IMG/VR virus record: IMGVR_UViG_3300025070_000277
Coordinates: 1-21,507 of that record
Source: a virus
DNA length: 21,507 nt
Reading direction: 5' to 3' (one strand)
Made by a program: the position numbers and the translations under genes. Position 1 is the first letter of the stretch. Each line of letters begins with the position of its first letter. The notes under the pieces were generated by a model. The model was not told the DNA's origin, searched no databases, and saw only the letters and a program-made list of their open reading frames with translations. Below, piece after piece: positions 3,047-13,449 of this stretch.

Positions 3047-5143
3047 ATGGAAGAAGAATTTGAAGATATGATCATGGATATGGAAGGCTCTGCTTCTGTT
3101 GAAGATGTAAAAGAAGAAGAACTTTCTGATCCTAAGGCTGGACAAATAATCAGTTTTGTAGGGGAAAAGTACTCCAAAGCTGAGACTGCAAGGAAAACAG
3201 AAGAGCAGCGTTGGGTCCAAGCCTACCGAAACTACCGTGGTATTTACGGACCAGATGTGCAATTCACTTCAACTGAGAAGTCTCAAGTATTTGTTAAAGT
3301 AACTAAGACAAAAGTCCTAGCTGCATATGGACAAATTGCAGAAGTTTTATTTGGTGGCAACAAGTTTCCAATTAGTATTGATCCCACTGTCCTTCCAGAT
3401 GGGGTAGAAGAGACAGTAAACTTTGAAACTAACCCAGAGCAAATGAAAGCTCAAGAGGGTCTACCTAGCCTCCTTCCTGGAGAGACTCTTCCAGAATTAC
3501 AAGAACGCCTTGCAGGAATAAAGGAAGACCTTCAACCAGTGATGGACAAGGTAGAATCTGGGTCTGCTAAGACTCCTACCTCTCCACAGTTCTTTCCTGC
3601 AGAAGTTGCAGCTAAGAAGATGGAAAAGAAAATCCATGACCAGTTAGAAGAATCTCACGCAAAGAAGCACCTACGGGCAGCAGCTTTTGAATCAGCTTTG
3701 TTTGGTACTGGTATTATGAAAGGTCCGTTTGCTGTAGACAAAGAATATGCAAACTGGGATGAAGAGGGTAATTACTCTCCTACTTTTAAAACTATCCCAC
3801 AGACTACAAGTGTTTCTATCTGGAACTTCTATCCTGATCCAGATGCAGCAACAATGGAAGAAGCTGAGTATGTTGTGGAGCGTCATAAGATGTCACGTTC
3901 TCAACTACGAGCACTTAAGAATCGTCCATACTTCCGTAAGAATGCACTAGACAATGCATTGAGTATTGGAGAGTCCTACACAAAAGAGTGGTGGGAACAG
4001 GCTATGGAAGATGAAGCAAATGAGTCTAAGTCAGAACGTTTTGAAGTTCTTGAGTTCTGGGGTTTTGTAGATACAGATATCCTAGAAGAGCAGGATATTG
4101 ACATTCCTAAAGAGCTTAAGGATGCAGAGCAGTTAAGTGTTAATGTCTGGATCTGTAACGGTCAAGTACTTCGTTTGGTAATGAACCCCTTCACTCCTGC
4201 TTACATTCCGTACTTTGCTGCCCCTTATGAAATGAACCCTTACAGCATATTTGGTGTAGGTATTGCAGAAAATATGGATGATACCCAAACTCTTATGAAT
4301 GGGTTTATGCGTATGGCAGTAGATAACGCAGCACTATCAGGAAACTTACTTATCGAAGTAGATGAAACTAACCTAGTTCCTGGCCAAGACCTCTCTGTAT
4401 ACCCTGGAAAAGTTTTCCGTAGGCAGGGCGGTGCAATGGGTCAGGCAATCTTCGGAACAAAGTTTCCTAATGTAAGTTCAGAAAACATGATGATGTTTGA
4501 TAAATCAAGGGTATTAGCAGATGAGAGTACAGGATTTCCTTCGTTCGCACATGGGCAAACTGGAGTATCAGGAGTGGGAAGGACTGCTTCTGGCATCAGT
4601 ATGCTTATGTCTGCAGCTAACGGCAGTATACGAAATGTTGTCAAGAACATAGATGACTACTTGCTTGCACCACTAGGTAAAGCCTTCTTTAACTTTAATA
4701 TGCAGTTTGACTTTGACCAAGAGATTAAAGGCGATCTGGAAATTAAAGCTCGTGGTACTGAAAGCTTAATGGCTAATGAAGTACGTAGTCAACGACTAAT
4801 GCAATTCCTGCAAGTTGTACAAAATCCAGCACTAGCACCATTTGCTCGTATGGATTACATTGTACGTGAGATTGCTAAGTCTATGGATCTTGATCCTGAT
4901 AAAGTTGGAAACAATATGGCACAAGCAGCAGTACAAGCTGAGATCCTAAAAGAGTTCCAAGCACAGAACCCACCACAACCAGAACCAGGAGTTCCACCAC
5001 AGGCTGGTCCTCAGGGCGCTCCTGCTGGTGCACAGGTGCAGGATACCTCTGGAGCAGGGGGTGGGACTATAGGAACTGGTACAGCGCCTCAGCCAGGAGA
5101 ACAGGGCTTCTCAGGTAACACTGGCCCACAACAGGTACAATGA
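3047..5143 (+). CDS. Portal protein
   Basis: A 698-aa protein directly after terL, starting ATG 3047 with AAGGATAAA upstream. Its size and layout fit the large podovirus portals of the P22 type. An acidic N-terminus is followed by a helical region (AETARKTEEQRWVQAYRNYR), a mixed core including ESALFGTGIMKGPF, VSIWNFYPDPDA and an aromatic loop region, and a helical barrel-like C-terminus (SLMANEVRSQRLMQFLQVVQ). The last 75 residues are Pro/Gly/Gln-rich and probably disordered. Portals form the dodecameric ring at one capsid vertex through which DNA enters and to which adaptor proteins bind. Identification rests on position, size and these segments. Its stop overlaps the next gene as ATGA. Confidence 0.92.
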   Translation: MEEEFEDMIMDMEGSASVEDVKEEELSDPKAGQIISFVGEKYSKAETARKTEEQRWVQAYRNYRGIYGPDVQFTSTEKSQVFVKVTKTKVLAAYGQIAEVLFGGNKFPISIDPTVLPDGVEETVNFETNPEQMKAQEGLPSLLPGETLPELQERLAGIKEDLQPVMDKVESGSAKTPTSPQFFPAEVAAKKMEKKIHDQLEESHAKKHLRAAAFESALFGTGIMKGPFAVDKEYANWDEEGNYSPTFKTIPQTTSVSIWNFYPDPDAATMEEAEYVVERHKMSRSQLRALKNRPYFRKNALDNALSIGESYTKEWWEQAMEDEANESKSERFEVLEFWGFVDTDILEEQDIDIPKELKDAEQLSVNVWICNGQVLRLVMNPFTPAYIPYFAAPYEMNPYSIFGVGIAENMDDTQTLMNGFMRMAVDNAALSGNLLIEVDETNLVPGQDLSVYPGKVFRRQGGAMGQAIFGTKFPNVSSENMMMFDKSRVLADESTGFPSFAHGQTGVSGVGRTASGISMLMSAANGSIRNVVKNIDDYLLAPLGKAFFNFNMQFDFDQEIKGDLEIKARGTESLMANEVRSQRLMQFLQVVQNPALAPFARMDYIVREIAKSMDLDPDKVGNNMAQAAVQAEILKEFQAQNPPQPEPGVPPQAGPQGAPAGAQVQDTSGAGGGTIGTGTAPQPGEQGFSGNTGPQQVQ

Positions 5144-5352
5144 AACTGGTCGTGAATAATACTTTAAAACCTTTTGTAAATAACCCTGAGCTATATAACC
5201 CTTTCCTTGAAGAGATTGATGAAAGGATTATGTTTGCTCAGATAGCTCTTGAACAATCTAGAGAACCCGATGAGTTGTTTAGATTACAGGGTGAGATACG
5301 TGCACTCAGGTCACTATTAAGATTAAGAGATAAAATCAATGGCAGCTCCTAA
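5140..5352 (+). CDS. Conserved small protein after portal (70 aa)
   Basis: Seventy residues, starting at ATG 5140 in a 4-base overlap with the portal stop. The N-terminus (LKPFVNNPELYNPFLEEIDE) is followed by two predicted helices (RIMFAQIALEQSREPDELFR and LQGEIRALRSLLRLRDKIN), giving a short helical hairpin. I recall similar short proteins directly after the portal in marine phages, but no named family. Tight coupling to the portal and the helical character suggest a small accessory to the portal or procapsid vertex. This is inference only. It overlaps the giant downstream gene by 14 bases. Confidence 0.75.
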   Translation: MKLVVNNTLKPFVNNPELYNPFLEEIDERIMFAQIALEQSREPDELFRLQGEIRALRSLLRLRDKINGSS

Positions 5353-8300
5353 TACATCCCTAAGACCTAAAGCTAGGCCTGAGTCTCAGACAGAGCGTAT
5401 GCTCAAACCTAAGACTATAGCTCAAGTTAAGGAAGACTTGCAGCAAAAACAACTTGCAGCAGATTTTGGAGATGTTGAATTTAGAGCCGATTTAGAACCA
5501 CAATTTTCTTGGAATCCTCTAGCTAGACTAGGGTACGATCCGAAGAAAGCTAAAGTCTTACCCTCTAGCCTTCTCGAACCTAACAATGCGTATGCAATTC
5601 CTGATAGTTCAACTGTAGAACGTATTACAAATGCATCAGAATTTAAAAGAAGTGACCCTTTAGAGGTTGAAAGAATTAATCCAGGAGATGTAGTTACTAA
5701 AGGTCCAACTGCAGTTTCTCCTGTCTGGTCTCACGAATTTACTCATAAAGGTATTGAAAGGTTAAAAGAATACTTAGATGAAGATCCAGAATTTTTTAAA
5801 GGGAAGTATGGAGAAAAAACTTTTAATTTAATTAATAAAATTTCTAAAGGGGGTAAAGAAGCAAAGGATGGTAATGAACGGGTCACTGAATTTTTTGATT
5901 ACTTAGAAGACACTATTAATGTTCCTGGATATACCGTTTCAAAAAAACAAATAGACAAAAGTTTAGAAATTCCTGAGATTAAACCAGAAACGCAAAAACT
6001 TTTAAAAGAAAAAGATTTTAATGAAGACGGTCAGATTTCTGCTATGGAATTTGCACAGGATACTTTTCTTGCTAATTCCTCTTGGGGAGGAGATAGAGAA
6101 GAGTTTCAAAAATACCTTAAGTCACCTAATAAGAAAAGAAAAAAATATCTAAAAAGTTTATTTCCAGGTCTTATGGGAGCTGTACAGGCAGCACAAGATT
6201 TACTTGAAGCTCAAGGAGAAGTGCCAAAGGTTAAGAAAAAAACTTTAAGTTTTTGGGAAAAGGTAGCAAAACATTTTGGATATAGTAGATTAGGTTTTAA
6301 CGAAGGTGGAGATGTAATAGGCCCAAAGTCTGAGCTAGAAAGACAACGAGAAGTAAATATAGCTGAACAAATGGCTACTCTCCCTAAGAAAAAAGATGAG
6401 TATAAACCATCCGTAGATCCTCAGAAAGAAGAGATTATAAAAAAGTATAATCTAGACGGTGCTAGATCTGGTTGGCAAGTTGGACCTACTACATTTCATA
6501 CTATTTATGAAAACCTTCCAACTAACTTTAGACTTCTTACAGAGTTTATCCTTGGTAAAGATACACCTATCACTATGGCAGATTTTACTAAAGATGAACT
6601 AGTTTCAATGATAGCTCTTTCAGAGAATCAGGAAAAAAATAAACTTAACCTTAAAAACAGAAAGTTAAAAGATCAACCTGAAAATGTAACAACAGTTACT
6701 ACTTATAAACTTAAACCTACTGATAGGTATCCTGATTGGGTTGAAAGTAATCCATACTTTAGAGCTATGGCACACAGTCTTTTTAGCCCTGAATACCAAG
6801 TACGTACAACTTTAGGTAGGTATGATACAGAAGATACTCCTTCAAGTCTCATAGTAAAAGATGCATACGATATGAATATTGGACAAAGGAGCTTACCTAA
6901 ACTTAGTAACCGTAAAGATTTAGCAGAAGTGTTAGACTACATGCGAATTGATCCTGAAATGGCAGGAGAGTTTATAGCAAATGTTTTCAGACCTAACCCA
7001 GAAGATTCAAGAAAGATTGACTTAGTAATACCAAAAAGAAAAAAGGTTGAAAATTTTAACGAAGGTGGTGATGTATCAGCTCAAATGCAATCTTTGATGA
7101 TACCTTCTGCAGATAACGATATTCGTCCAGAAGATTATGTTCAGTATAGAGAAGATAACTTTACTCCAGCAAGCTTTGCAGAAGACTCTTGGGAAGATAC
7201 GAAGAAAAGATTTATGGATGCAGGTAGGATTGATGTAAATCCCGATGATCCTGCTATCTTCACTGCGTATAAACGTGCTGTCGATTACCTTAAAGATACA
7301 GGACTTGCAGGTTTAGGTTTAGCTGATACTGCATTTAAATATGCTGTAGGTTCTGCAGCTCAGGTTATGCCTACAGAAGCTTTAGAAAAACGTATGGCTA
7401 GAGATCTTTACTCTATGCCAGAAGCTTTTGCTGGAGCAGCAGGTGCTAGAAGCCTAACTCAACTTGATGATGCAGCAGATGCATTTCTTGAAGGGTCTCT
7501 GCACGTAGCACGTAAAGCAGGTCAAATGAAACCTGACCCCAATACACTTGCAAGTTTTGCTGGAGCTGTGCCTCCTACATATATACAGAGAGATACTCCA
7601 CTTTCTGAAATGGGAGAGTACCAACTTGATTATTTTCGTCAAGTAGAACCCACCGAAAAAACAAAACTGAAAGACTTAGAACTCCTCCAATTTAGAGAAC
7701 CTATTTCAGAGTTTATAAAAACCTTAACTATACCTAAAAAAGGTATGATAGGATCAGAGTTTTTAAACCAAATAAAAAAGAATCCCTCTATCCCAGAGAC
7801 TTCTTTACAAGAGGGTATTATAGATCCCAGTAAAAGATATACTAAGGAGGAGTTACTTGGGGCCATAGGAGTAGGAAAAAATACTCAAGGCACTTTTAGA
7901 TCTGCTGCAAATATTTCTCCTTATAGAATAAAACAATTTGAAGGCAATCAAAGACAAACAAAAGATGCAGGGTTTCAAGGTGGAAGAGAGGTTGAGTATT
8001 TTGATATACCCATAGATACGACTATTGGATATCCTGGGAAACGTTTTAGGGCTAATTATCAACATTATAGTCCAGAAACTTTAGTTCATGTTAGAGGTTC
8101 TATTGTAAGTCCTTATAGACAAATTGAGTTTTCTCCTAGAAAAATAAAAGAGTTTGACAAGATTATTGGGGGTAAAAATTACTTACTCGGAGAAGAGCTT
8201 CAGTCTGACCTTCTTACTAAAGGTTATGCAAAACCAAATAATTTTTTTGACGCTGTATTTTCTGAAGCTACAAAAAACTGGGAATCTGCTAATCTTGTTA

Positions 8301-11155
8301 CTTACCAAGAAGCTCTTGGTGATATAGATAAAGAAATTAAAAAGGTTTTAAAGCTTCTTGATGATCCATCTTCAGCCCACCTTTCTCCTGGAAGAGTTTC
8401 CAGTAATCCTAAGTTTTATCATTTTTCTTCAGAGTACACCAACAAGGTAAACTTTGAAGATAGAAAGAGGGGATTAAAAGGTCTTGCAAGTCTAGATAGA
8501 ATTGATTATGACGAGCTTTCAGATCTTCTTATTAAAACAAGTGCAACTGAAAAAGACATAGATCAGGTTTTTGAAACGTTAAAAGCTGATGCACTATTAG
8601 AACCAATACTCCTAAGAAAATCTGCAATAGATTCAATGTGGGAGAATGATCCTGAAGCTGCAGTATTCTTTGAAGGTGGGCTAGACGACGTTGATTTTCT
8701 TACTCACGACGAGCTTGTAAATTTACCAGAAGTTAATTCAATAAATGATAAAGGTATAAAAGAAGACTTTTTAAACTATCATAATAAACGGCAGCAAGCT
8801 CTTGACAGTGCAACTGAAGAATACTTAAATTTTTTACAGTCTCAAATAGATAAGTTAAAAATAAATGATACAATAGATGCTAAAGATTTAGCCGAACTTC
8901 ATGAAAATATGATAATGGCTCAGTCTTATACTCCAGATACTTCAGAGATTGGCCTACCTCCAATACGTAAAAATAAACAAGCTGTAGATGAAGCACTTAA
9001 AGTTCTTATTGCCAAAGCAGCACAATCAGGTGTAGACAAAATTGTCATACCTCCAGCAAGTCGTATTGCTTTAGCTAGGGGTAGAGATCTTGAGAAAGAT
9101 AAGGGTGATAGGTTTTATAGAACTTATGTAACTGACTTAAACAAATCCTTAAAGGAGCTTGAAGAAAACTACCCTGTTGTAATACACAGGGATGTTGAAA
9201 TGCCTTATGGTATCAGGGGAGAAGCAAGTACTGATGAGCTTATAGGATTTGAAGATATAGATCAAGATCTAGGTTTTGATGCGGAAAATGACCCAGAAAT
9301 AACAAATCTCCTTAATGAAATGGCAGGAGATATTGATATGGAAGCTATTGGTCAACAAATAACTGAATTAGTAGATCAAAACTTAAACGATGTCAATCAA
9401 GTTGTAGTAACTGAACCCTTAGGTAATGAACTTCTACCTCCTAGTCAAAGGAAAAAAACAGTTGATGTAAGTGACAAAGGTACAATTATAGATATCTCAG
9501 AACTAGTTAATAGATTTAAAGTAGAACAACCAAGACAGTTTGCCCAAGGAGGCGTAGCAATGAATAAACAAATGGAAATGGCTTTTATGCAACAAGGTGG
9601 ATTGCAGGATGACGGGATGAATCAAGATCCTGTATCTGGTAATGAAGTACCCTCTGGGTCGATGGCTTCAGAAGTACGAGATGATATCTCTGCCCAGTTG
9701 TCTGAAGGTGAATATGTTGTACCTGCTGATGTTGTTCGTTATCTTGGAGTAAAACACTTTGAAGACTTGAGAGATAAAGCTAAAAACGGACTTAATAAAA
9801 TGGAAACTGATGGTCGTATTGGTGGAGAACCCGTACCTGTTGGTGGACCTAAAGCAGGTCTACGACCAGATGAGATGCAAGAAATACAAAAGATGTTTGA
9901 AGGTGGTATGGTAGCTGGAGCTGCAAATGGAGCAGACTTTAGTTTCTATAATCCTACAGGATCAACTGTAGAAGAAGCTGTAACCACTCCTGGACCTGCA
10001 GGTAGACCTATGTACAGTGGAGAGTTTAGCTTTGAGCAACCTGGAGCTGGTTTAGCTACACCACCACCTGAAGTAACAATACCTGAAACACCAGAACAAA
10101 AAGCTGTAACACTGTATGGACCAAGTGGTGAAGTTATAGCTTTGATGCTACCTAGAGACCAAACTATGTATGACCAACTTATTGCTCAAGGTTATGGACT
10201 TACAGCACCACAAATAGAAAAAGAAAGAAGTGATAAAGATAAAGATAAAGAAGTACAAACTGATCCAAATGCTTGGATGGATAAGTATGACTATAATAAT
10301 CTAGACAATTTAGCTACACAAACAGAAGATCTTTTAACTGCTGAAAAAGGTTTTATAGGTAAAGTACTTGGTGGAGGGGTTATAGGCATGTTTATTTCTG
10401 CCAGTAATGCAGCTCAGGCAGCAGCTAACATAGCAATTCTTAAATCTAATGGACAAGAAGCTGAGGCAGAAAGATTAAAAACTTTGTGGGATGGTTACGT
10501 AAAACAGAATAAGATTGACGTACTCCCCAGTTTCACTTATAATGGTGATCAATTAACAAGACAAATTGTACAAAATAATCCAGGAAAAGACCTTGGACTA
10601 CAGTTTGGAGATACGGATGTAAACGGAGATCCAATCTTTAAAAATCAAAAAGACTTTGATGACTTTGCTCAAAGTGTTGCACCAGAAGGTATGACTTTTA
10701 TTCCTGATAAAGGGAAATACATAAGGCCAGAAGGAGTATCTTATGAACCAGAAGAGCTTCCAAGACCCAAAGCTAGACCTACTTCTTATCAACCCCCTAA
10801 ACCTGAAGTATCAGATTCTTCAGCCTTACAAACAGGTCCAGAAATAAGAGGCAGGAAACGACCTCAACCCAAAACTGCACCTATTGATGACCCTCTTGAA
10901 CAAATACAGGACGCTGCTAATAGAAAAAGCAGAGAAGCTCATCTCCCTGGCCCCCGTAAGTCAGATATACCTTCTTCTTCTTCTATAGAAGATAGGACAG
11001 ATATAGTTTCAGAATCTTTAGCTGATAAACAAGCAAAACAAGCAAAACAAAAAGCTATAAAGAGAACAGAAGAAACTCTTAAAGCTATGGAAAGAGGTGT
11101 TCAAAGGGGATTTAAAAAAGGCGGCTTGATGAAAAAGAAAAAGAGTAAAAAATAA
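5339..11155 (+). CDS. Giant multidomain virion-associated protein (1938 aa)
   Basis: One uninterrupted 1938-residue frame between portal and scaffold. Residues 1-320 hold an HExxH motif (SHEFTHKGIERL, H132/E133/H136) with acidic residues about 45 downstream (NERVTEFFDYLED), as in zinc peptidases. They also hold a textbook EF-hand loop (DFNEDGQISAME, 226-237). Residues about 800-1250 resemble a segment of phage polyvalent proteins: GSEFLNQIKKNPSIP, then HYSPETLVHVRG (909-920), GEELQSDL (951-958) and AVDEALKVLIAKAAQSGVDKI (1215-1235). Residues 1453-1480 hold the marine-phage block LSEGEYVVPADVVRYLG. A glycine/alanine hydrophobic stretch (1671-1701) may be membrane-active. FxxGG motifs recur at 320, 573, 1110, 1401 and 1925, and RPKARP occurs near both ends. 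Most likely an internal, ejected or maturation protein; function is not proven. Confidence 0.85.
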   Translation: MAAPNTSLRPKARPESQTERMLKPKTIAQVKEDLQQKQLAADFGDVEFRADLEPQFSWNPLARLGYDPKKAKVLPSSLLEPNNAYAIPDSSTVERITNASEFKRSDPLEVERINPGDVVTKGPTAVSPVWSHEFTHKGIERLKEYLDEDPEFFKGKYGEKTFNLINKISKGGKEAKDGNERVTEFFDYLEDTINVPGYTVSKKQIDKSLEIPEIKPETQKLLKEKDFNEDGQISAMEFAQDTFLANSSWGGDREEFQKYLKSPNKKRKKYLKSLFPGLMGAVQAAQDLLEAQGEVPKVKKKTLSFWEKVAKHFGYSRLGFNEGGDVIGPKSELERQREVNIAEQMATLPKKKDEYKPSVDPQKEEIIKKYNLDGARSGWQVGPTTFHTIYENLPTNFRLLTEFILGKDTPITMADFTKDELVSMIALSENQEKNKLNLKNRKLKDQPENVTTVTTYKLKPTDRYPDWVESNPYFRAMAHSLFSPEYQVRTTLGRYDTEDTPSSLIVKDAYDMNIGQRSLPKLSNRKDLAEVLDYMRIDPEMAGEFIANVFRPNPEDSRKIDLVIPKRKKVENFNEGGDVSAQMQSLMIPSADNDIRPEDYVQYREDNFTPASFAEDSWEDTKKRFMDAGRIDVNPDDPAIFTAYKRAVDYLKDTGLAGLGLADTAFKYAVGSAAQVMPTEALEKRMARDLYSMPEAFAGAAGARSLTQLDDAADAFLEGSLHVARKAGQMKPDPNTLASFAGAVPPTYIQRDTPLSEMGEYQLDYFRQVEPTEKTKLKDLELLQFREPISEFIKTLTIPKKGMIGSEFLNQIKKNPSIPETSLQEGIIDPSKRYTKEELLGAIGVGKNTQGTFRSAANISPYRIKQFEGNQRQTKDAGFQGGREVEYFDIPIDTTIGYPGKRFRANYQHYSPETLVHVRGSIVSPYRQIEFSPRKIKEFDKIIGGKNYLLGEELQSDLLTKGYAKPNNFFDAVFSEATKNWESANLVTYQEALGDIDKEIKKVLKLLDDPSSAHLSPGRVSSNPKFYHFSSEYTNKVNFEDRKRGLKGLASLDRIDYDELSDLLIKTSATEKDIDQVFETLKADALLEPILLRKSAIDSMWENDPEAAVFFEGGLDDVDFLTHDELVNLPEVNSINDKGIKEDFLNYHNKRQQALDSATEEYLNFLQSQIDKLKINDTIDAKDLAELHENMIMAQSYTPDTSEIGLPPIRKNKQAVDEALKVLIAKAAQSGVDKIVIPPASRIALARGRDLEKDKGDRFYRTYVTDLNKSLKELEENYPVVIHRDVEMPYGIRGEASTDELIGFEDIDQDLGFDAENDPEITNLLNEMAGDIDMEAIGQQITELVDQNLNDVNQVVVTEPLGNELLPPSQRKKTVDVSDKGTIIDISELVNRFKVEQPRQFAQGGVAMNKQMEMAFMQQGGLQDDGMNQDPVSGNEVPSGSMASEVRDDISAQLSEGEYVVPADVVRYLGVKHFEDLRDKAKNGLNKMETDGRIGGEPVPVGGPKAGLRPDEMQEIQKMFEGGMVAGAANGADFSFYNPTGSTVEEAVTTPGPAGRPMYSGEFSFEQPGAGLATPPPEVTIPETPEQKAVTLYGPSGEVIALMLPRDQTMYDQLIAQGYGLTAPQIEKERSDKDKDKEVQTDPNAWMDKYDYNNLDNLATQTEDLLTAEKGFIGKVLGGGVIGMFISASNAAQAAANIAILKSNGQEAEAERLKTLWDGYVKQNKIDVLPSFTYNGDQLTRQIVQNNPGKDLGLQFGDTDVNGDPIFKNQKDFDDFAQSVAPEGMTFIPDKGKYIRPEGVSYEPEELPRPKARPTSYQPPKPEVSDSSALQTGPEIRGRKRPQPKTAPIDDPLEQIQDAANRKSREAHLPGPRKSDIPSSSSIEDRTDIVSESLADKQAKQAKQKAIKRTEETLKAMERGVQRGFKKGGLMKKKKSKK

Positions 11156-11231: not shown

Positions 11232-12140
11232 ATGCCTGAACTAACAGAAATGGAAACACCAAAGACTGCAGGATTTGTTGAACGTGGATCAAACTACATG
11301 AAGCGTAAACAAGAAATGAAAGATGAAGAAGAGGAGATCAAACGTCTTGAAGCTGAACAGCGAGGAGAATCTGAATCAGAAGAAGAAGAAGAAACAACTG
11401 AAGAAGAAACTACCGAAGCGAAAGAGGCCGATACAAAAGATAAAGAAGAGACGTTATCTCCAGAAGAAAAGTCTTTCAAAAAACGCTATGGTGATCTAAG
11501 ACGACACATGCAGCAGAAGGAAAAGGAGTGGGATGCTAAACTTGAGAACCTACAAAAGGCTTCTGAAAAAGCGGGTATCATACCACCCAAGTCTGATGAA
11601 GACATAGAGGAGTGGGCTAAGGAGTATCCTGATGTAGCTGGAATTGTAGAAACTATTGCAGCTAAGAAAGCCCAAGAAATGTTTGAAAGGGCTAACACTC
11701 GGATTAAGGAACTTGATGAGGCTCAATCAGAAGCTAATCGAGTAAAGGCAGAAAATGAAATACGTAAAACTCATTCAGACTTTGACGAGCTACGAGATTC
11801 AGACGGATTTCATGATTGGGCTGACGAACAACCTAAGTGGGTTCGTGATGCTTTGTATGAAAACTCTGACGATCCAGCATCTGTGGTCCGTATAATTGAT
11901 CTGTATAAAGCAGACAAAGGTCTTACCACTAAGGATAAGAAAGCTAAAACAAAAGAAGCAGCTAAGACAGTTACTAAACGTAGTAGAACGGAAGTAGATG
12001 TAGCTGATGCTAACGACATGATTCGGGAATCAGATGTTGCAAAAATGTCTGACAAAGAATTTGAAGAACGTTCAGATGATATTAATACAGCAATGCGCAA
12101 TGGAAAATTCATCTATGACGTGTCTGGTTCTGCCAGATAA
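11232..12140 (+). CDS. Capsid scaffolding protein
   Basis: A 302-aa, highly charged protein immediately upstream of the coat gene, where scaffolds sit. The N-terminal 90 residues are extremely acidic, with long Glu runs (around residues 30-75), then LSPEEKSFKKRYGDLRRHMQ. The middle is rich in predicted coiled coil (KEKEWDAKLENLQKASEKAG; MFERANTRIKELDEAQSEAN). The C-terminus has a mixed-charge helix ending MRNGKFIYDVSGSAR. Scaffolds co-assemble with coat protein into a procapsid and leave before or during packaging. Composition, lack of enzyme motifs and position support the call. The start is fixed by GGAG 8 bases before ATG. It ends exactly where an inverted repeat begins in the coat leader. 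Confidence 0.85.
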   Translation: MPELTEMETPKTAGFVERGSNYMKRKQEMKDEEEEIKRLEAEQRGESESEEEEETTEEETTEAKEADTKDKEETLSPEEKSFKKRYGDLRRHMQQKEKEWDAKLENLQKASEKAGIIPPKSDEDIEEWAKEYPDVAGIVETIAAKKAQEMFERANTRIKELDEAQSEANRVKAENEIRKTHSDFDELRDSDGFHDWADEQPKWVRDALYENSDDPASVVRIIDLYKADKGLTTKDKKAKTKEAAKTVTKRSRTEVDVADANDMIRESDVAKMSDKEFEERSDDINTAMRNGKFIYDVSGSAR

Positions 12141-12375: not shown

Positions 12376-13449
12376 ATGGCTTTTACAACAGCAAGTGGAC
12401 ACGGTAACTTACCTAACGGTAATTTTAGTTCCGTAATCTACTCCAAAAAAGTACAGCTTGCATTCCGCAAGAGCACTGTATGTGGTGACATCACCAACTC
12501 AGATTATTTTGGCGAGATTTCTGCCCAAGGCGATACCGTTAAAATCATCAAAGAACCTGAAATTTCCGTAAGCTCATATGCTCGTGGTACTCAGGTTTCA
12601 GCACAAGATCTTGATGACGAAGATTTTTCATTGGTCGTAGACAAAGCTAACTACTTTGCCTTTAAGATTGATGATATCGAAGAAGCTCACTCACATGTGA
12701 ACTTCATGGATCTTGCAACTAATCGTGCAGCTTATCGTTTGGCTGATCAGCATGACCAAGAGGTTCTTGGCTACTTGTCTGGTTTCAAACAGTCATCTTT
12801 GCACTCACAAGCAGACACAGCTAATGATGTTGTAAACGGTTCTAAAGCTGTTTCAACTGCTGGTTCAAATGAATTGCTTTCAAGCATGCAATTGAAAAAG
12901 TCTGACTTTGGCAACATTACAACTAGCTCTGCTGGAGATCACTCGATCCCACTAGCAGCTCGTTTGCCAGGTGCTACTGCACTTCCAACTGCTACAGCTT
13001 CACCAGCAATGGTTGTTGCTCGTATGGCTCGTTTGCTTGACCAACAACAAGTAGACAAAGCTGGACGGTGGATTGTAGTTGATCCAGTATTCATGGAACT
13101 CCTTGCAGATGAAGACTCACGTTTCTTCAATGCAGACTTCGGTGAATCAGGTGGACTACGTAATGGTCTTGCAGTGAATAATTTCCACGGCTTCCGTGTT
13201 TATTCTTCAAGCAATTTGCCAGCAATTGGTACAGGTCCAGGTACAACTGGTTCTGCAAACCAAAATGCTAACTATGGTGTTATTGTTGCAGGTCATGATT
13301 CTGCTGTTGCAACCGCAGAGCAAATCAACAAGACTGAAACTTACCGTGATCCTGACAGCTTTGCTGACATCGTTCGTGGTATGCACCTATATGGCCGCAA
13401 GATCCTTCGCCCAGAAGCTCTTGTTAACGCCAAGTATAACGCAGCGTAA
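12376..13449 (+). CDS. Major capsid protein (HK97-fold type)
   Basis: A 357-aa protein just after the scaffold, with the strongest ribosome binding site in the window (AGGAGG, 7 bases before ATG) and its own promoter and structured leader, as expected for the most abundant virion protein. Telling segments are GNFSSVIYSKKVQLAFRKS near the N-terminus, GDTVKIIKEPEISVSSYARG (52-71), LVVDKANYFAFKIDDIEEAH (about 86-105), FMDLATNRAAYRLADQHDQE, GRWIVVDPVFMELLADEDSR, and the late FHGFRVYSSSNLP and MHLYGRKILRPEAL. This order of strand and helix blocks is that of P22/HK97-like coat proteins in marine podoviruses (recalled). It assembles the icosahedral head on the scaffold. No delta-type cleavage site was identified. 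Confidence 0.9.
   Translation: MAFTTASGHGNLPNGNFSSVIYSKKVQLAFRKSTVCGDITNSDYFGEISAQGDTVKIIKEPEISVSSYARGTQVSAQDLDDEDFSLVVDKANYFAFKIDDIEEAHSHVNFMDLATNRAAYRLADQHDQEVLGYLSGFKQSSLHSQADTANDVVNGSKAVSTAGSNELLSSMQLKKSDFGNITTSSAGDHSIPLAARLPGATALPTATASPAMVVARMARLLDQQQVDKAGRWIVVDPVFMELLADEDSRFFNADFGESGGLRNGLAVNNFHGFRVYSSSNLPAIGTGPGTTGSANQNANYGVIVAGHDSAVATAEQINKTETYRDPDSFADIVRGMHLYGRKILRPEALVNAKYNAA

Follow-up and report, generated by a model that had tools for sequence, protein, structure and literature searches.

A candidate injected giant protein carrying a distant relative of a polyvalent-protein module in the head-gene region of an HMO-2011-type marine phage

What does a protein of 1938 residues do among the head genes of a marine phage? 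Phages and conjugative elements encode an established class of polyvalent proteins (Iyer et al. 2017, PMC5512222), and an original prediction made from this locus held that the central region of its largest gene resembles one of their domains and that the whole protein would be an injected effector. Here, we follow the first claim through profile and structure comparisons, and the second through the architecture and variation of the gene in related phages.

Phage type and layout of the giant protein

The window (the whole stretch of DNA analyzed, a 21.5-kb viral contig of 21,507 nucleotides) encodes a terminase, an SU10-type portal, the 1938-aa open reading frame, a scaffold-like gene product, the major capsid protein, an SU10 adaptor and tail proteins; all features below lie on the + strand. 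The portal gene (3047..5143; Pfam SU10_portal, 2.4e-28), of the SU10/HMO-2011 type, shares 66–76% identity with its counterparts in roseophages CRP-13, CRP-9 and CRP-2 and SAR116 phage HMO-2011; for HMO-2011 and the CRP phages taken together, the range is 58–76% over 87–98% of the length. Because the head gene order also coincides with that of HMO-2011 and the CRP phages, we assign the window to the HMO-2011-type marine podophages, reported to be one of the most abundant and widespread groups of viruses in the sea (PMC9038755). The gene of the giant protein (5339..11155) occupies a slot whose left flank is the portal gene and whose right flank is the scaffold-like gene (11232..12140; phrog_13678), followed by the major capsid gene (12376..13449; phrog_267, 1.8e-61). 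It is thus coded among the virion genes of a portal-terminase phage, and its position is matched in about 50 related contigs. The gap between portal and slot gene holds a small 70-aa frame (5140..5352), with counterparts in the equivalent place of cultured CRP-9, CRP-13, CRP-207 and HMO-2011.

Direct searches of the giant protein against Pfam, NCBIfam and PDB sequences gave no match above the cut-off; by Pfam, neither a polyvalent domain (LPD, ART-PolyVal or others) nor a MuF domain was found in it. PHROGs matches were confined to the C-terminal part (phrog_3547, tape-measure-like, 1.5e-05). The protein consists of a zincin-like N-terminus, two more segments, the EEIQSD module and a C-terminal part that the phages of the group have in common. 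Polyvalent proteins combine at least two domains of disparate activity; several exchangeable segments are evident in the giant protein, with activities predicted from motifs only.

The N-terminal module (residues 1–319; 5339..6295) carries HEFTH at residues 132–136 (nt 5732–5746) and is zincin-like by motif alone; it has neither a Pfam nor a PDB match, and 9 of 10 homologues retain HExxH, at identities as low as about 30%. The same module contains an EF-hand-like loop, DFNEDGQISAMEF (residues 217–242, nt 5987–6064), with Pfam matches below cut-off. Two linkers follow, FNEGGDVIG (residues 320–328; 6296..6322) and FNEGGDVSA (residues 573–581; 7055..7081); the proteins of loci L004, L128 and L129 start directly after the second. 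Residues 357–744 resemble the start of the cargo in locus L202.

Downstream of the EEIQSD module lies the C-terminal module common to slot proteins, FAQGGVAMNKQMEMAFMQQGGLQDDGM..SEGEYVVPADVV..IGGEPV (9539..9835), present in nearly all complete slots; we propose it as a virion-loading domain. The C-terminal third holds a second variable, low-complexity stretch (window 10300–11118), dissimilar between the window and its sister phage L138 and ended by a conserved GGL..KKKK tail. The basic C-terminus itself, FKKGGLMKKKKSKK (11111..11155), has parallels in 22 of 40 complete slot frames with at least five K/R within the last 10 residues.

The EEIQSD module and its relatives

All motifs on which the predicted resemblance was based are found inside the 5339–11155 frame in the order claimed: GSEFLNQIKKNPSIPETSL (residues 805–823, nt 7751–7807), YTKEELL (834–840), HYSPETLVHVRG (909–920), GEELQSDL (951–958, nt 8189–8212) and AVDEALKVLIAKAAQSGVDKI (1215–1235, nt 8981–9043). 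The region was correctly located, but its span (7736–9085) was drawn too short. Alignment to canonical modules with hhalign and MAFFT, together with the order of secondary structure elements, places the module at residues ~782–1402 (7682..9544), and it is one cassette only of the giant protein.

The canonical family was represented by at least 120 EEIQSDWHQ loci fetched by DNA pattern, 80 of which were aligned. Their consensus begins FYS..KGTG.qFL..LkK.PGVKkeEl.w.GL..fL...kvTKqEv / YqLPGGENYREiLLtLP / SsHfdePNvLAHmR / LfvEEIQSDWHQ.GRkkGY and continues VPDAPFKktWheLalKR.lryAAenGYDriAwttG.qqaeRY / GGEGMKgFYDkiLP..nKygKK / ldITPeMResi..GQPLF; every segment has a counterpart in the window, in identical order. 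Segment A, GSEFLNQIKKNPSIPETSL...YTKEELL (7751..7858), corresponds to KGTGxqFLxxLkKxPGVKkeEL...vTKqEv (hhalign E 1.5e-9), and segment B, GGREVEYFDIPI...HYSPETLVHVR (7970..8098), to GGENYREiLLtLP...SHfdePNvLAHmR, with GG, H, H and R invariant in 32 sequences. The core NYLLGEELQSDLLTKGY (8177..8227) matches LFVEEIQSDWHQxGRKKGY by MAFFT and the slot-family profile. Segment C, PPIRKNKQAVDEALKVLIAKAAQSGVDKIVIPP...DRFYRTYVTDLNKSL (8951..9190), is collinear with PDAPFKKTWHELALKRxxRYAAENGYDRIAWTTG...GFYDKILPxxxNK and individually weak, and the module end GTIIDISELVNRFKVEQPRQFA (9479..9544) was matched to VHxLDITPEMRESIxxGQPLF by eye and by predicted secondary structure. The correspondence therefore exceeds the motifs first named, extending to GGxxxY and HxxxxxxxHVR. 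The WHQxGR that follows EEIQSD in canonical copies is absent from the window, which reads EELQSDLLTKGY, and from intermediates such as Pelagibacter phage HTVC028P (EEMQSDLL); as it is missing from clear members such as this one, we do not count it as defining. Where the window has EELQSDLL, its relatives L002, L004, L128 and L129 have EEIQSDLL, nearer the form given in the original prediction.

By tblastn, none of 50,697 phage records matched the module, and the link was therefore made through profiles. The close family of the window, gathered without use of the motif, matches the canonical profile in its N-terminal segment (hhalign, 96.3%, E 1.5e-9), with the DEALKVLIAKAA segment in correct order and weak (P 0.008). 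A broader slot-family profile matches at 98.7% and E 4.6e-16 over 158 columns through EEIQSD. The six-residue EExQSD match within it is partly due to selection, since slot-family members were picked for containing this motif; the 1.5e-9 segment and the remainder of the 158 columns are free of it. Control comparisons all stayed at P 0.005–0.8 (best reversed profile P 0.13; unrelated portal, scaffold and peptidase families P 0.005–0.5). The family of HTVC028P gp34 provides a strong intermediate, matching the canonical profile at 100% and E 1e-60.

In a MAFFT alignment of 32 sequences, G881, G882, H909, H917 and R919 are invariant, and R934, L949, E952, E953, Q955, S956 and D957 are at least 90% conserved. 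The pattern E[EQ][ILMV]QSD occurs in 19 slot proteins versus none in 240,906 aa of other frames on the same contigs. The C-terminal half of the module is collinear and aligns weakly by sequence; HMMER searches with single segments were likewise weak, although in three of the four cases family members mostly outranked the reversed decoys.

Canonical copies of the module are accompanied by domains that led us to count it as polyvalent. An open reading frame of at least 4616 aa on P. aeruginosa plasmid p382 (L136:1-13848) combines 12 ART-PolyVal domains, LPD23, an HEIQH motif and an EEIQSDWGQ module; locus L105 joins the module to a Strawberry-notch helicase and LPD38 in a single polypeptide; and in MW202675 the module gene follows the portal gene and a gene encoding ART-PolyVal, M15 and GNAT domains. 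Across the proteins scanned, neither Pfam nor NCBIfam supplied a model for the module. It is covered by phrog_7348, labeled "endolysin" and matched by L008, L012, L086, L117 and L119. We rejected this label as a function of the module, phrog_7348 being a multidomain profile of 2564 positions; it could also lead to wrong annotation of multidomain proteins of this kind.

AlphaFold2 modeled the canonical module with fair confidence (pLDDT 78, pTM 0.66) and the window module with low confidence (pLDDT 61, pTM 0.44), the latter with strands and helices near the motifs in the canonical order. Of the seven BFVD entries that best match the window model, two bear the name "Large polyvalent protein associated domain-containing protein" (probability 1.00 and 0.98, with low TM-scores). 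Against PDB folds, the canonical model is matched best by N-acetyltransferases (SSAT, with a probability of up to 0.82; E ≥ 0.012). Together with a compatible order of strands and helices, these matches raise the possibility that the module is a GNAT-like acyltransferase targeting host proteins or small molecules. We hold this idea only tentatively: no fold match falls below E 1e-3, the exact acetyl-CoA loop motif was not found, and the window model gave only noise and no GNAT against PDB folds, nor did the PDB sequence search return a match. A GNAT-like fold is only hinted at by the models.

Judged by sequence, the central module is genuinely, if distantly, related to the polyvalent-protein module; profile comparison, secondary structure order and the best predicted-structure matches all bear out the resemblance, which reaches far beyond short motifs. 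Chance likeness is very improbable: each motif is short by itself and WHQ is missing in the window, but the profile match (E 4.6e-16) comes with clean controls and many conserved collinear columns.

Exchange of cassettes in the slot

At the DNA level, sister phage L138 is 93–97% identical to the window on the left side as far as nt 7126, 87% identical at nt 9522–10299 and 96% identical from nt 11119. Between flanks of 93% and 87% identity, the window cassette (7127..9521, residues ~597–1394), which encloses the span singled out in the original prediction, is replaced in L138 by unrelated sequence. In the L138 cassette (L138:6001-11523), LPD23 (8.4e-11) and a TLLHEIQHIIQ peptidase motif are accompanied by a ParB-like stretch whose end lies near NTRVAVAKDLNVPSIRAEV.

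We surveyed 80 portal-based loci and added others that had been obtained by way of the module or the N-terminus (a biased addition). By motif-based labels, the 51 slots with a recognized C-terminal part comprise 16 with EEIQSD, 13 with HExQH, one with both, 15 with other cargo and six with none. Among the 45 cargos, 26 architecture groups can be distinguished, with segments common to several cargos in a mosaic manner. LPD23 was found in nine of 31 slot proteins, NlpC/P60 in five and CHAP in three. When cargo labels are mapped onto a tree of the portals, they switch 17 times or more, and in three sets the portals are identical while the cargo differs.

The sharpest replacements are seen in the pairs L160/L161 and L128/L202, which are about 97–99% identical until the slot start codon and then unrelated; identity returns no more than about 16 residues away from the FxxGG linker preceding the C-terminal part. 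These are pairs of metagenome contigs, for which misassembly is a risk, reduced by the presence of both flanks in several pairs. The F..GG pattern occurs 87 times in slot proteins versus 15.6 expected from shuffling, an excess partly due to inheritance of a single linker, and is absent from 40 portals and 38 scaffold-like proteins. In L208 (L208:4607-8688), the slot protein is split into two frames exactly at an FxxGG linker, the first ending RFAEGGLV and the second starting MDEQMEM.

A cassette swapped beside near-identical flanking genes points to a changeable cargo entering the bacterium with the phage DNA. The variable region could instead be a filler or spacer devoid of effector activity in a structural protein of the head or ejection tunnel, of inner-core or tape-measure-like type. 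The tape-measure PHROG profiles matching the C-terminal part, the adjacent portal and the low-complexity, partly disordered stretches agree with such a role, yet we consider it unlikely: the gene set is of podophage type, and the cargo retains putative catalytic residues (HExxH, EExQSD) and matches polyvalent families. Moreover, the slot proteins HMO-2011_49 and L189 start at the C-terminal part, and since such cargo-free versions occur in nature, cargo is not structurally needed. Less probable still is a maturation peptidase or assembly factor working in the producing cell or the virion rather than in the next host. The HEFTH zincin motif, linkers that could serve as cleavage sites and the nearby scaffold-like gene would suit it, but most slot proteins are devoid of the HEFTH domain, and the cargo changes too rapidly to fit a conserved step of assembly.

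Proposed role and comparison with known systems

The sequences establish that the module is homologous, that the protein is built of modules, that near-identical phages differ by exchanged cassettes and that the gene has a fixed place in the head operon. As a whole, these findings are best explained by the giant protein being a polyvalent-type, virion-associated injected cargo protein of an HMO-2011-type podophage, which we regard as likely. The slot gene lies with those of the portal and the scaffold-like protein; its product would probably be made late and probably be loaded into the head by its group-common C-terminal part. The N-terminal cargo domains, separated by FxxGG linkers, would be exchangeable, and the cargo would pass into the bacterium along with the DNA and act early on its host. 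That the protein is packaged and injected, acts on the host and is processed at the linkers is what we infer; an injected effector, as originally suggested, is plausible given position, architecture and precedent, and the NlpC/P60 and CHAP domains of some cargos suit an action during entry. FxxGG may be a processing site freeing each effector. For a wider proposal, we see the case as evenly balanced: a dedicated hypervariable slot, in which a C-terminal head-loading module takes interchangeable polyvalent effectors, would exchange them between start codon and FxxGG faster than portals diverge, so that near-identical phages carry different injected sets.

Polyvalent proteins are already known as a class, and the window protein belongs there. 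Two things look new: the unnamed module, and a slot that keeps its place, exchanges rapidly and has a C-terminal part found group-wide in abundant marine phages. In the open-access literature searched, we found no paper tying HMO-2011-type phages to polyvalent proteins. If real, a slot exchanging effectors beside unchanged head genes would allow near-isogenic phages to be compared for each injected cassette, for example against host defenses. A widespread EEIQSDW module is now defined despite the absent Pfam/NCBIfam model, with ADP-ribosyltransferases, helicases and peptidases as its neighbors in polyvalent proteins, and the C-terminal part is a directly testable candidate loading signal.

Like polyvalent proteins, the window protein is a multidomain giant whose gene is a neighbor of virion genes in a portal-terminase phage; it shares with them a zincin-like HExxH motif and a homologous EEIQSD module, which elsewhere co-occurs with ART-PolyVal, LPD23 and LPD38. 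It differs from them in having no Pfam-recognized domain, in the loss of WHQ from the module, and in its single fixed slot with a group-wide C-terminal part and FxxGG cassette exchange. The gp34 of cultured HTVC028P (MW273921) likewise has the module, there with EEMQSDLL, and its signature segments, and lies among internal-virion genes; however, it follows the tail genes rather than the portal and has no SEGEYVVPADVV C-terminal part.

Among cultured HMO-2011-type phages, slot genes HMO-2011_49, CRP-9 gp54, CRP-13 gp55 and CRP-207 gp58 share the orthologous position, the C-terminal part and the FxxGG linkers with the window. Unlike it, the cultured slot genes examined carry other cargo or none, without the EEIQSD module, and are annotated only as hypothetical proteins. 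The N-terminal region of CRP-9 gp54 (L234:3039-7226) looks like a CHAP/NlpC-type hydrolase, and its middle contains RLDIPAY..W..S.HD, also found in CRP-207 gp58.

The virion RNA polymerase of phage N4 is reported to have an injecting N-terminus, a catalytic middle and an encapsidation C-terminus (PMC9569702, PMC5512222). It is a giant polyvalent virion protein comparable in layout to that proposed for the window, but its cargo is a single fixed RNA polymerase. DdrB of phage P1 is processed before packaging (PMC5512222). MuF polymorphic toxins also join a constant virion-associated domain to variable cargo; their constant domain is N-terminal, whereas the constant part of the window slot protein is C-terminal (PMC5576092).
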